Positions 3,070 to 6,917 of a DNA stretch of 64,000 bases are shown here, piece by piece. The stretch is taken from the NCBI RefSeq assembly GCF_030317115.1, contig NZ_JASZYF010000005.1, forward strand, positions 1-64,000. Reading direction: 5' to 3'. Position 1 is the stretch's first letter. The number at the start of each line of letters is the position of its first letter. A program made the position numbers and the translations under genes. Under the pieces are notes generated by a model. That model had not been told where the DNA came from and ran no database searches. It was given only the letters and a program-made list of their open reading frames with translations. Source of the stretch: Variovorax gracilis. GTDB taxonomy: Bacteria; Pseudomonadota; Gammaproteobacteria; Burkholderiales; Burkholderiaceae_C.

Positions 3070-4026
3070 TCAGCGAACGTCGCGACGAGCCAGCAGCACG
3101 TTGCCGCCGGTCGTGTTGAACGAGATGGTCGGCGCGCTGAAATCGCTCAGCGGTGCGCCCAAGCCGATCTCGCCGCTGCCGTGCAGCACGCACTCGTCGC
3201 GCCTGAGCGCGATTTCGCCGCTGGCACCAGCGGTGCCGTGGAACCGGACCCAGGTGCCATAGGTGCTGACATCGACCAGCACGCAACTGCCGTGACGCGC
3301 CTCGATGCGCGCGTGCAGGCGCGACACCCGCGGATCGTTGACGACGAATTGCGCCTCGTCGACCCGCCCCAGGTGAATGGGCAACTCGGCGGCGCGGAAC
3401 ATCGAGCGCACGTCGAGCCATGCCAGCTCGATCTGCCCGAAGGATGAATCCGCGCCGCGCGCCGGCTGGATCAGCGCGGCAGGCATCGTCAGGAATTCGG
3501 AAACCTCGTCCTGCCAGTCGACCCTGTGGACGACGGGCATCTCGACCTTGCCGCGGATATTGATGGGTCCCAGGTTGCGATGGCGCACTTCGCCTTCGTG
3601 CAATTGCTCGATGACGGATTCGGTCGCCCAGATCTGGCCGGGACCGGCCAGGTCGCTGAGCCGCGATGCCAGGTTGACCGCGTCGCCGTAGCAGTCGCCG
3701 TCGACCTCGACGACTTCACCGCTGGCGACGCCGATCTGGAGTTCCATCCGCAAGGGCGCCGGCCAGGTCTGCAGCCGCTTCTGGTGGTTGCGCTGCATTT
3801 CCAGCACGGCCCGGGTCGCGTTCACGCCATTGGCGAAGATGGCAAAGACGCCATCGCCCAGCGATTTCACGACACGGCCGCCATGGGATTCGCACACGCC
3901 GCCGATCCACTGGGTCAGGCGCGTCACCGTTTCGGTCGCACGGGCATTCCCCATGGCCTCGAAAACCCTGGTGCTCCCCGTCAAGTCAGCAAATACGACA
4001 GTGGAAATGGCGCCCATGTTGTGCAA
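3070..4026 (-). CDS. Class III adenylate/guanylate cyclase with C-terminal FHA domain
   Basis: 318 residues in two domains. The N-terminal class III cyclase domain carries both metal-binding aspartates (FADLTGST, D14; KSLGDGVF, D58) and the transition-state region GDAVNLASRL (about 113-122). The C-terminal FHA domain (about 215-300) shows GR, SRLHA and the STYGTWV loop, which bind phosphothreonine. It should make cAMP (or cGMP) under control of a phosphoprotein partner. No transmembrane segment is seen, so it is cytosolic. M4 (4017) is an alternative start. There are no co-transcribed neighbours. The nucleotide product is not settled by what I can see. Confidence 0.88.
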   Translation of the reverse strand: MHNMGAISTVVFADLTGSTRVFEAMGNARATETVTRLTQWIGGVCESHGGRVVKSLGDGVFAIFANGVNATRAVLEMQRNHQKRLQTWPAPLRMELQIGVASGEVVEVDGDCYGDAVNLASRLSDLAGPGQIWATESVIEQLHEGEVRHRNLGPINIRGKVEMPVVHRVDWQDEVSEFLTMPAALIQPARGADSSFGQIELAWLDVRSMFRAAELPIHLGRVDEAQFVVNDPRVSRLHARIEARHGSCVLVDVSTYGTWVRFHGTAGASGEIALRRDECVLHGSGEIGLGAPLSDFSAPTISFNTTGGNVLLARRDVR

Positions 4027-4694: not shown

Positions 4695-5624
4695 TCAATG
4701 GGCGTGCCGATGTCCCCACACCATGAAGACGTCGCGACCATCGGCCGCCAGCTCGACCTTGGCGCCGACCGGCAGGAGCACCTTCGTCGGCACGTGACCG
4801 AAAGGCAGCCCGGTGAGGACCGGCGGCTTGATCAGTGCGCGCAGGCGCGCCGTGACGGTTTGCATGCTGAAGCCACGGTCGTGCGGCACCTTCTTCGCGC
4901 CGGTAAAGGACCCGAGGATCACGGCCTTCTGACGTCCCAGCACACCCGCTTGGCGCAACTGGTCGAGCATGCGCTCGACACGGTAGGGATGCTCGTTGAC
5001 GTCCTCCAGGAACAGCACGCCCTTGTCGATCGCCGGGAAGTAAGGCGTGCCGAGCAGGCTGGTCAGCACGCACAGATTGCCGCCCCACAGCACGGCATCG
5101 TGGATGCTGCGCAGCTTCGGCAGATCGGCGCTGTCGCGTGCCGGCATCCGCCAGCCAGTGCCCTCGCCCTGCCCGCTCAGCAGATCGTCGAAGCAGGCTT
5201 CCATGATGTCGTCGGCGCCGGCCTCGGCGCCGAAGTCCTCGCCGACCGCGGGGCCGGCCCAGGTCACGGCGCCGGTCTTGGCCAGCAACGCGCTCTGGAA
5301 GGCGGTGAAGTCGCTGAGTCCGATGAACTCGGTGCCTTGGTGGATGGCCTTGGCCACGGCCTTGTACGGAATAGCGTCGAGGATGCGCGTAAGGCCGTAG
5401 CCGCCGCGCGAGATGAGTGCCACGTTCGCGCCGCTGGCTGCTGCGCGCGAGATGGCAGCCAACCGCGTGGCGTCGTCGCCCGCGAAACGCTGGTGTGTTG
5501 CAAGAGCCGCTTCGTCGATCTCGACTTCATGCCCGAGCGCCTGGAGCCGTTTGACGCCACGCTTGAAGGCGGCCTTGTCGCGCACGGCGCTGGAGGGCGA
5601 ATAGATGTAGATGTGTTTTTTCAC
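4695..5624 (-). CDS. ldcA: LD-carboxypeptidase (muramoyltetrapeptide carboxypeptidase, family S66)
   Basis: 309 residues, normal length for family S66. It removes the terminal D-alanine from murein tetrapeptides during cytoplasmic recycling. The expected catalytic triad is present: Ser104 in GLSDFTAF, Glu207 in FLEDVNEHPYR and His277 in GLPFGHVPTK. There is no signal peptide, consistent with cytosolic recycling. Its ATG overlaps the stop of the upstream TadA-hydrolase gene by 4 bases (ATGA), so the two are translationally coupled. It is the last gene of a four-gene run. Confidence 0.92.
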   Translation of the reverse strand: MKKHIYIYSPSSAVRDKAAFKRGVKRLQALGHEVEIDEAALATHQRFAGDDATRLAAISRAAASGANVALISRGGYGLTRILDAIPYKAVAKAIHQGTEFIGLSDFTAFQSALLAKTGAVTWAGPAVGEDFGAEAGADDIMEACFDDLLSGQGEGTGWRMPARDSADLPKLRSIHDAVLWGGNLCVLTSLLGTPYFPAIDKGVLFLEDVNEHPYRVERMLDQLRQAGVLGRQKAVILGSFTGAKKVPHDRGFSMQTVTARLRALIKPPVLTGLPFGHVPTKVLLPVGAKVELAADGRDVFMVWGHRHAH

Positions 5625-6697
5625 GGGGCGAAGTATCCCATTGCGTCCCTGGCCAACCGGGCCGCCTGCGCGGCCGTGGGGCCGGAGACCCGCTTTGGAA
5701 CAGGCCCCAGCGCGCGCAAGGCGGCCTCGTAGCCCCGATCGGGAAAGGGTGCGCGCCAGGCATCGGATGCGGATTCACCGCCGTCCGGCGCGACCATGAC
5801 CAGAGGAAACCGTTCGGGCGCAGCCTCGGCCAGAAGCGACGCCAGTCCGGATGCATTCGCACTGTGTACCAGCGCGAGCGCCCCCGGCTGCAGGCGATCG
5901 AGCCACTCGATCAGCACGTCCCGATGCCACGCGAGTCGATGCACGGCTTCGCGCTTGGGCTTGTCGCTTTGCCCGAAGCCGATCAGGTCGGGCGCCAGCA
6001 CATGCAGGCCCTGCACGACCGCGAGGTGCCTGAACAGGTAGCACCATTCCCCGGGCCCATGCAGGCACAGGCAGGCGAATGCCGCGTCCTGCGGCCCCTC
6101 GTCCAGATAGTGCATGCGCAAGCCTTGCAGGCTTGGCAGGTCGCTCACGTAGTGCGGCGCAAACGCGTAGTCGGCCAGCGTGCTGAAGCGATCCGCCGGC
6201 GTGCGCAACGCGTCGTCGCGCAAGGGCTCGGCCGTCTCGCGCGCCGCGCTGCGACGGTCGCGGAAGAAGTTCTGCAGGGGTGCCTGGCAATCGGCTGCCA
6301 GAACGCCGCCCTGCACTCGCGTGTGATGGTTCAACTGCGGCTGGCCGAGCACATCGATCACCGATCCCGCCGCGCCGGTCTTCGGGTCCGCAGCGCCGAA
6401 CACCACGCGGGCGAGCCGCGCGTGCAGCATGGCGCCCGCACACATGGCGCAGGGCTCGAGTGTCACGAACAGTTCGCAGCCATCGAGACGGTAGTTGCCC
6501 AGCGCGGCACCCGCCGCCCGAAGCGCGTTGATCTCGGCATGCGCGCTCGGGTCGTGCAGCGCGACAGGAGCATTGCGGCCGCTGGCGATCAACACGCCAT
6601 CCTTCACCAGCACGGCGCCGACAGGCACTTCACCGGCATCGGCTGCCTGCCTCGCCTCGGCCAGCGCGAGGCCCATCCAGTGCTCGTCAGTTGGCAT
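5621..6697 (-). CDS. tadA: tRNA adenosine(34) deaminase TadA fused to a truncated alpha/beta-hydrolase
   Basis: 358 residues. Residues 1-155 are TadA, which makes inosine-34 in tRNA-Arg: zinc and catalytic residues are in HAE (53-55) and PCAMC (82-86). Residues about 165-358 resemble a dehalogenase-type alpha/beta-hydrolase: oxyanion loop LHGPGEWC (212-219), APDLIGFGQSDKP, and the nucleophile region LVHSANASG (Ser279). The two glycines of G-x-S-x-G are absent, and the sequence ends about 80 residues after the elbow, where the acid and histidine would normally follow, so hydrolase activity is doubtful. Start ATG 6697 begins the TadA core and overlaps the upstream small gene by 11 bases. Confidence 0.88.
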   Translation of the reverse strand: MPTDEHWMGLALAEARQAADAGEVPVGAVLVKDGVLIASGRNAPVALHDPSAHAEINALRAAGAALGNYRLDGCELFVTLEPCAMCAGAMLHARLARVVFGAADPKTGAAGSVIDVLGQPQLNHHTRVQGGVLAADCQAPLQNFFRDRRSAARETAEPLRDDALRTPADRFSTLADYAFAPHYVSDLPSLQGLRMHYLDEGPQDAAFACLCLHGPGEWCYLFRHLAVVQGLHVLAPDLIGFGQSDKPKREAVHRLAWHRDVLIEWLDRLQPGALALVHSANASGLASLLAEAAPERFPLVMVAPDGGESASDAWRAPFPDRGYEAALRALGPVPKRVSGPTAAQAARLARDAMGYFAP

Positions 6698-6917
6698 CGT
6701 TGGCGGGACGTCGCTGCTGCATCGCGGCGTCGAGCGACTGCTTGAATTGCTGCTGAATCTGCTGGCTTTGTGCGCGGGCATCGCCGGCTGGCGCGTCGCC
6801 GGCCGGTGCCGGGCCGGTCGACAGAGCGGGCGCGGCCATGCCGCCGAGTTGCTTCTTGACCAGCAAGCCGACGATGGCGAGCGCCAGAACGAGACCGATC
6901 AATCCGATGACACGCAC
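6687..6917 (-). CDS. Small single-pass membrane protein
   Basis: 76 residues from a GTG at 6917. One strong transmembrane segment (VIGLIGLVLALAIVGLLVKK, 3-22) is followed by a Gly/Pro/Ala linker and a Gln-rich polar tail. The GTG lies 1 base from the stop of the upstream FMN-binding gene, and the 3' end overlaps tadA by 11 bases, so translation is coupled on both sides. This tight packing is the main evidence that it is real. Function unknown. Confidence 0.7.
   Translation of the reverse strand: MRVIGLIGLVLALAIVGLLVKKQLGGMAAPALSTGPAPAGDAPAGDARAQSQQIQQQFKQSLDAAMQQRRPANDAN

Follow-up and report, generated by a model that had tools for sequence, protein, structure and literature searches.

A TadA tRNA deaminase fused to a haloalkane dehalogenase remnant that appears to be retained after repeated loss of catalysis

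The window analyzed here, 64,000 nucleotides at the start of contig NZ_JASZYF010000005.1 (assembly GCF_030317115.1) of Variovorax gracilis, carries on its minus strand, at 5621-6697, an open reading frame of 358 amino acids in which a TadA deaminase (residues 1-153) is followed by the remnant of a haloalkane dehalogenase (residues 160-358; Table 1). The listing of open reading frames gives an upstream ATG at 6781, and homologues together with the TadA model place the start near 6697. Since the next gene starts on the tadA stop codon, there is no room for a hidden C-terminus; an S66-type signature follows tadA in 95 of the 116 relatives' loci with enough DNA. Past the S66 peptidase gene, at 3073-4026 on the same strand, lies a sequence with an adenylate/guanylate cyclase catalytic domain joined to an FHA domain. 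The best named relative is Variovorax sp. J2P1-59, with 91% identity.

Table 1. Features of the fused gene and its downstream neighbor, in window coordinates.
Feature	Residues	Position	Strand
TadA deaminase domain (HAE at 53, PCAMC at 82)	1-153	6239..6697	-
Haloalkane dehalogenase (HLD-I) remnant	160-358	5624..6220	-
Junction block PLRDDALRTP, kept	158-167	6197..6226	-
LHGPGEW, kept, oxyanion-type loop	212-218	6044..6064	-
SDKPKR, kept, with the Lys-Lys/Arg pair	244-249	5951..5968	-
Dead elbow VHSAN (QDWGG in intact relatives)	277-281	5855..5869	-
Fragment APFPDRGYEAALRA, kept	316-329	5711..5752	-
Final helix of the dehalogenase fold, with the tail	342-358	5624..5674	-
LD-carboxypeptidase (peptidase S66), next gene; its GTG start and the tadA stop overlap (GTGA)		4695..5624	-

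The first half is identified as TadA by a score above the curated cut-off of the NCBIfam equivalog NF008113 (E = 3.8 × 10−60, 202.5 bits vs. a cut-off of 150, residues 3-153) and by the zinc site HAE/PCxxC. It resembles E. coli TadA (1z3a) over the whole domain, with a Z of 26.9, 54% identity and the same HAE and PCAMC motifs. The bacterial TadA chains among the structure matches are 138-168 residues long and lack a C-terminal extra domain; the proteins that pass the TadA cut-off here carry approximately 175 to 310 extra residues. A tRNA-Arg gene was sought in the source genome with one pattern, which gave no match and, being narrow, says little.

The C-terminal part matches the haloalkane dehalogenase model PRK00870 with an E-value of 7 × 10−39 (best stretch 162-303) at 134 bits, well below the cut-off of 265, and the full fusion P0003 from a relative scores 331.9 bits against the same model. 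The best PDB matches are 2xt0 and 1bee (E of about 4 × 10−34), and Pfam Abhydrolase_1 reaches 23.3 bits on this part, also below its cut-off (25.8). Residues 160-358 share both fold and sequence with DhlA (1b6g) and DppA (2xt0), at 36-37% identity and a Z of 21, which places their descent in the subfamily-I haloalkane dehalogenases. An earlier note, made from the letters of the window, had read the gene as TadA fused to a shortened hydrolase, and NF008113, PRK00870 and the structure matches bear this out.

Intact relatives carry the elbow VVQDWGG, with the acid located in QDPVLG and the base within GGHFVQE (D285, D412 and H445 in the numbering of P0003). The window protein has VHSAN in place of the Asp nucleophile and its Trp, and both the acid and the base columns are gaps. 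The LHGPGEWC loop, the VHSAN elbow without both glycines and the absence of the acid and histidine region are thus as the earlier note had described them, and the catalytic elbow is indeed gone, although the nucleophile that was lost is the Asp of QDWGG and not a serine. Because intact relatives have Asp at this place, the serine of VHSAN is not the family nucleophile; among 41 Variovorax sequences its H and S are each kept in at least 90%, with the serine short of all, and in other dead lineages the elbow column holds G, P, A, E, N or other letters. H213 and W218 of LHGPGEW are invariant in alignment A1 (n = 71 sequences; L049 and L073, truncated where their contigs stop, were left out, as were the L077 duplicates L078 and L080).

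The shortening proposed in the earlier note is also real, though it arose by two internal deletions and the last helix is kept. The AlphaFold2 model of the remnant superposes on DhlA (1b6g) with a Z of 21.0 and an rmsd of 2.3 Å over 194 residues, and since the superposition runs from chain residue 1 to 310 the loss must be internal instead of a C-terminal cut. According to the model, one of the two inner deletions took out the greater part of the cap and the other the final two strands, which carry the acid and the base. From the cap boundary of DhlA, we take the remaining fragment APFPDRGYEAALRA (APFPDRGY) to be a piece of the full enzyme's cap. Compared with DhlA and DppA, then, the remnant has lost its nucleophile, its acid and its base together with two of the eight strands and most of the cap; compared with standalone proteins, it has a Lys-Lys/Arg pair and, in PFPDxG, a Gly, neither of which is found in the 29 examined. 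The window protein is modeled as a compact fold with a mean pLDDT of 93.3 and a pTM of 0.67 (71 sequences), the latter value leaving the relative placement of the two domains in this single-chain model unsure, and the full fusion with a pLDDT of 93.8 and a pTM of 0.73 (54 sequences); both alignments mixed reduced and full-length relatives, which may make the remnant look tidier than it is. The full-fusion model matches DppA with a Z of 46.9.

Within the genus, the fusion is present with the same architecture and no stops in 60 of 61 genomes (the source genome included), the single miss being a 62%-complete genome; one match (G037) begins at residue 23. With the frame open throughout, a frameshift or assembly artefact, on which the earlier reading would have foundered, is ruled out. 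Selection was gauged by pooled Nei-Gojobori omega over 41 sequences (588 pairs, which are non-independent). The values are 0.161 for TadA, 0.269 for the linker and first strands, 0.247 for the stretch from LHG through SDKPKR to WH, 0.062 for the PFPD block (20 codons), which is below TadA itself, 0.454 for the elbow region, the highest of the six regions, and 0.406 for the tail. To judge by these codon comparisons, the elbow and tail are clearly relaxed, and the earlier claim that the domain is kept by selection stands for parts of it, the PFPD block above all. With catalytic residues lost and other residues under apparent purifying selection, the domain is a putative pseudoenzyme kept by selection, in agreement with the pseudo-hydrolase on TadA that the note had proposed.

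The genome search used the whole fusion as query, and the TadA part alone suffices for a match, so domain-less TadA is detectable as well. At 1e-40, at least 388 of 397 genomes of the family matched, and the matches listed are a mix in which full and reduced fusions occur beside unfused TadA and standalone dehalogenases. The 119 loci studied, hand-chosen to span genera and not a random sample, comprise 37 full, 66 reduced and 16 TadA-only loci by search span. They gave 101 fused proteins of more than 300 residues and 18 shorter ones, namely G333 (broken frame), G121 (internal stop), G201 and 15 TadA-only loci (including G220, cut at a contig end). With the window protein and one named Variovorax added, the fused-protein alignment holds 36 live proteins, in which the nucleophile, its Trp, the acid and the base are all kept, and 67 dead ones, in which they are not; some relatives thus do keep a full hydrolase with an intact triad, a point the earlier note had raised. 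G132, taken as TadA-only, in fact bears a divergent fused domain. In G333 (locus L214) the TadA frame stops early and a dehalogenase-like sequence with an altered elbow lies in another frame, through either a real frameshift or a sequencing error, and in each of L179 (G168) and L183 (G121) a single in-frame stop interrupts the matched fusion.

Further out, 300 genomes of the order gave 30 matches at 1e-62, of which 22 lie outside the family: 2 fusions (G455 and G545, both from the same other family), 18 standalone dehalogenases and 2 TadA alone, the last two classes being assigned by matched span. The class survey (370 genomes, 1e-70) gave 8 matches, and the 5 outside the family are all standalone; at these two thresholds strongly reduced fusions outside the family could escape. 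The dehalogenase parts of G455, G545 and L100 cluster with standalone enzymes (SH-aLRT 99 for the three, 82 for the group with three standalone rows) and have neither the Lys pair nor the Gly, which is why TadA and a dehalogenase were, by their sequences, probably fused twice. L100, L336 and L337, whose QDWGG elbow is intact and whose sequence resembles that of standalone enzymes, form an apparently separate second fusion, from a different family in the same order. In the dehalogenase tree the 33 family fusions fall on one side of a branch with a support of only 53, and the RpoB clade that holds the fusions (76 rows) has an SH-aLRT of 100. Nine sampled TadA-only genomes lie outside this clade in the RpoB tree, with G201 inside. 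G201 has lost the whole domain (TadA of 155 amino acids, with an S66-like start close behind), as have L109, L111 and L112, Rhodoferax MAGs if their titles are right, and the domain must therefore be dispensable in some lineages. A pre-fusion state, with a standalone dehalogenase beside tadA, was not seen in six genomes, where the two genes are separated by more than 0.5 Mb or sit on separate contigs. We found no mention of a TadA-dehalogenase fusion in the open-access literature, which was the scope of the search (subscription papers and preprints lay outside it).

The history of the triad was read from the RpoB sequences of 86 genomes (18 live and 56 dead among them), placed in a tree by a quick search under LG+G4. 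G318, G421 and G118 had no RpoB match, that of G127 was too short, and a second G259 piece was omitted; the dead G172 sits on a long branch outside the fusion clade and was excluded from the event count. A Dollo count, in which catalysis is never regained, gives 27 losses, or 21, 18 and 11 after branches below an SH-aLRT of 80, 90 and 95 are collapsed, and unordered parsimony, which allows regain, gives 15 changes. Live and dead sisters are paired at a support of 97-100 in G176/G259, G304/G143, G415/G367, G320/G170 and G249/G164. A single clade-specific truncation, a possibility that the earlier note had raised, does not fit losses spread across the family (27, or 11 at a support of at least 95), and a recent truncation confined to the genus is likewise ruled out, with 60 of 61 genus genomes reduced alike and losses recurring outside it. 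Five dead proteins (G076, G359, G323, G386 and G430) retain the acid and His columns with the nucleophile or its Trp gone, which suggests, so far as aligned columns can tell, that catalytic loss can precede deletion.

The blocks that outlive the triad are the same ones, namely ALRTP, GLRxHY, LHGxxxW, SDKPK[KR] and PFPDxGH. R167, D242, S249, D250 and P252 are kept by all members in 27 of 27 loss events, as is a basic residue (K or R) at 253; for G365 the count is 25. Of the triad, the nucleophile D285 is kept in 4 events, the acid in 2 and the base in 3. Each of the 18 kept residues tabulated is shared by every member in 22 to 27 of the 27 events, with Lys/Arg and His/Tyr scored as equal at four of these positions. 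Lys-[Lys/Arg] after SDKP occurs in 62 of 67 dead proteins and in 0 of 29 standalone ones, and 35 of 36 live proteins have Lys-Lys (the remaining one Lys-His); Gly365, the Gly of PFPDxG, is present in 65/67 dead, 36/36 live and 0/29 standalone proteins. His258, by contrast, is also found in 11 of the 29. Within this alignment, the Lys pair and the Gly can be regarded as typical of the fusion and as having outlived catalysis.

Of 107 positions conserved at 95% or more in live proteins, 38 are unchanged in 75% or more of the dead ones, and these are divided very unevenly: 37 of 58 in scaffold segments (6/10 in 156-190, 9/18 in 191-225, 17/20 in 226-270 and 5/10 in 356-375) vs. 1 of 49 in the elbow, cap, acid and His segments (1/14 in 271-300, 0/15 in 301-355 and 0/20 in 376-463), for a Fisher p of 1e-12 that involves non-independent positions and a segment grouping chosen after the data were seen. 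That so few of the 49 are retained means there has been enough time for decay. Many of the retained residues are conserved in standalone dehalogenases too, and part of the pattern is therefore ordinary fold maintenance.

The reading we favor, with a probability of about 0.68, is that a former dehalogenase was fused to TadA, lost catalysis repeatedly and was kept as a folded remnant for a non-catalytic service. A haloalkane dehalogenase would have joined TadA, most likely once, at the stem of the comamonad-type lineage; the fusion-typical residues would have been gained while the enzyme was still intact; catalysis would then have been lost again and again, with fixed scaffold residues held by selection as the folded remnant serves TadA non-catalytically. 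The fusion, the deletions, the recurrent loss, the selective retention and the predicted fold are shown by computation, and the job of the remnant is inferred. Our first choice, held tentatively, is an appendage that may help TadA hold or position tRNA through the basic SDKPK[KR] loop and the PFPDxGH segment. It is favored because the loop recalls the KR-motif of ADAT2 and the dead domain recalls ADAT3. The parts consulted of the papers on these proteins describe a C-terminal basic KR-motif of ADAT2, in a segment absent from bacterial TadA, that contacts the anticodon stem-loop (PMC9643335), and an N-terminal domain of ADAT3 that positions tRNA (PMC8216470). As portrayed there, ADAT2/ADAT3 too is a wobble deaminase that carries an extra domain or a basic tail, and ADAT3 is itself an inactivated enzyme, as the remnant here appears to be (PMC8216470, PMC9643335); the added parts of the eukaryotic proteins, though, are of other folds with tRNA contacts shown, whereas the dead part here is a hydrolase and its tRNA binding is putative. 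By this analogy, a bacterial lineage may have evolved, independently and out of a dehalogenase, an ADAT-like dead domain that handles tRNA.

Ranked just behind tRNA handling, and a serious competitor to it, is a job in folding, stability or partner docking, in which the remnant would do no more than stabilize TadA or the TadA dimer, or give another protein a place to dock, without touching tRNA. The compact, confidently modeled fold, the kept last helix and the charge of the domain are all in keeping with this: the window's domain is acidic (net charge −5), dead domains are no more basic on average than standalone enzymes over 164-375 (p = 0.49), and only the SDKP segments are more basic (p = 0.003 and 0.007), partly from the Lys pair itself. 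The derived Lys-Lys/Arg pair, however, is not what one would expect if stability were all that mattered, and the TadA side offers no fusion-specific residues: when a signature of a docking surface was sought there, no residue was found except position 88, whose letter in fused TadA also occurs in 5 of 20 TadA-only proteins.

Slow neutral decay of a dehalogenase that had lost its use, in which the remnant consists of parts still to be eroded, or of parts that must stay so that the frame remains open and no misfolded tail results, seems unlikely to us. The relaxed elbow and tail, the stepwise losses in the five proteins that hold acid and His columns after the nucleophile or Trp has gone, and the full loss in G201, L109, L111 and L112 would all suit it. 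It does not readily explain why positions conserved in live proteins are kept at the 75% level in 0 of 35 cases in 301-355 and 376-463 vs. 17 of 20 in 226-270, why the PFPD block is more constrained than TadA, or why the same residues persist through independent events. Least probable is that other chemistry was kept or gained, or that a vestigial pocket binds a small ligand, as a sensor or a serine hydrolase. Most dead proteins keep LHGxxxW and PFPD, and most of the genus keeps the H and S of VHS, which would fit, but the acid and base columns of the window protein are gaps, the elbow column varies across dead lineages and its region has the highest omega; a hydrolase with a Ser nucleophile was thought unlikely on the same grounds.

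Against the retention of a non-catalytic remnant in the service of TadA stand the loss of the domain in G201 and the titled Rhodoferax MAG loci, the missing TadA-side signature and a domain that is not basic overall. The family offers a natural repeated experiment, in which the fused enzyme is still whole in some lineages and catalysis has died separately 11 to 27 times in others. One can use it to ask which parts of an enzyme a lineage still needs when the chemistry has been lost, and whether an accessory domain lies hidden in a bacterial enzyme that edits tRNA. Finally, TadA-only relatives from sister genera (L217-L232) have a conserved terminal peptide, IPxG[ED]xxxL, in 10 of the 14 family members listed, with the variants GIDVRHLDE in G090 and GIEVTELD in G102, and this peptide resembles the GLRLHYLDE strand kept by the fused forms.
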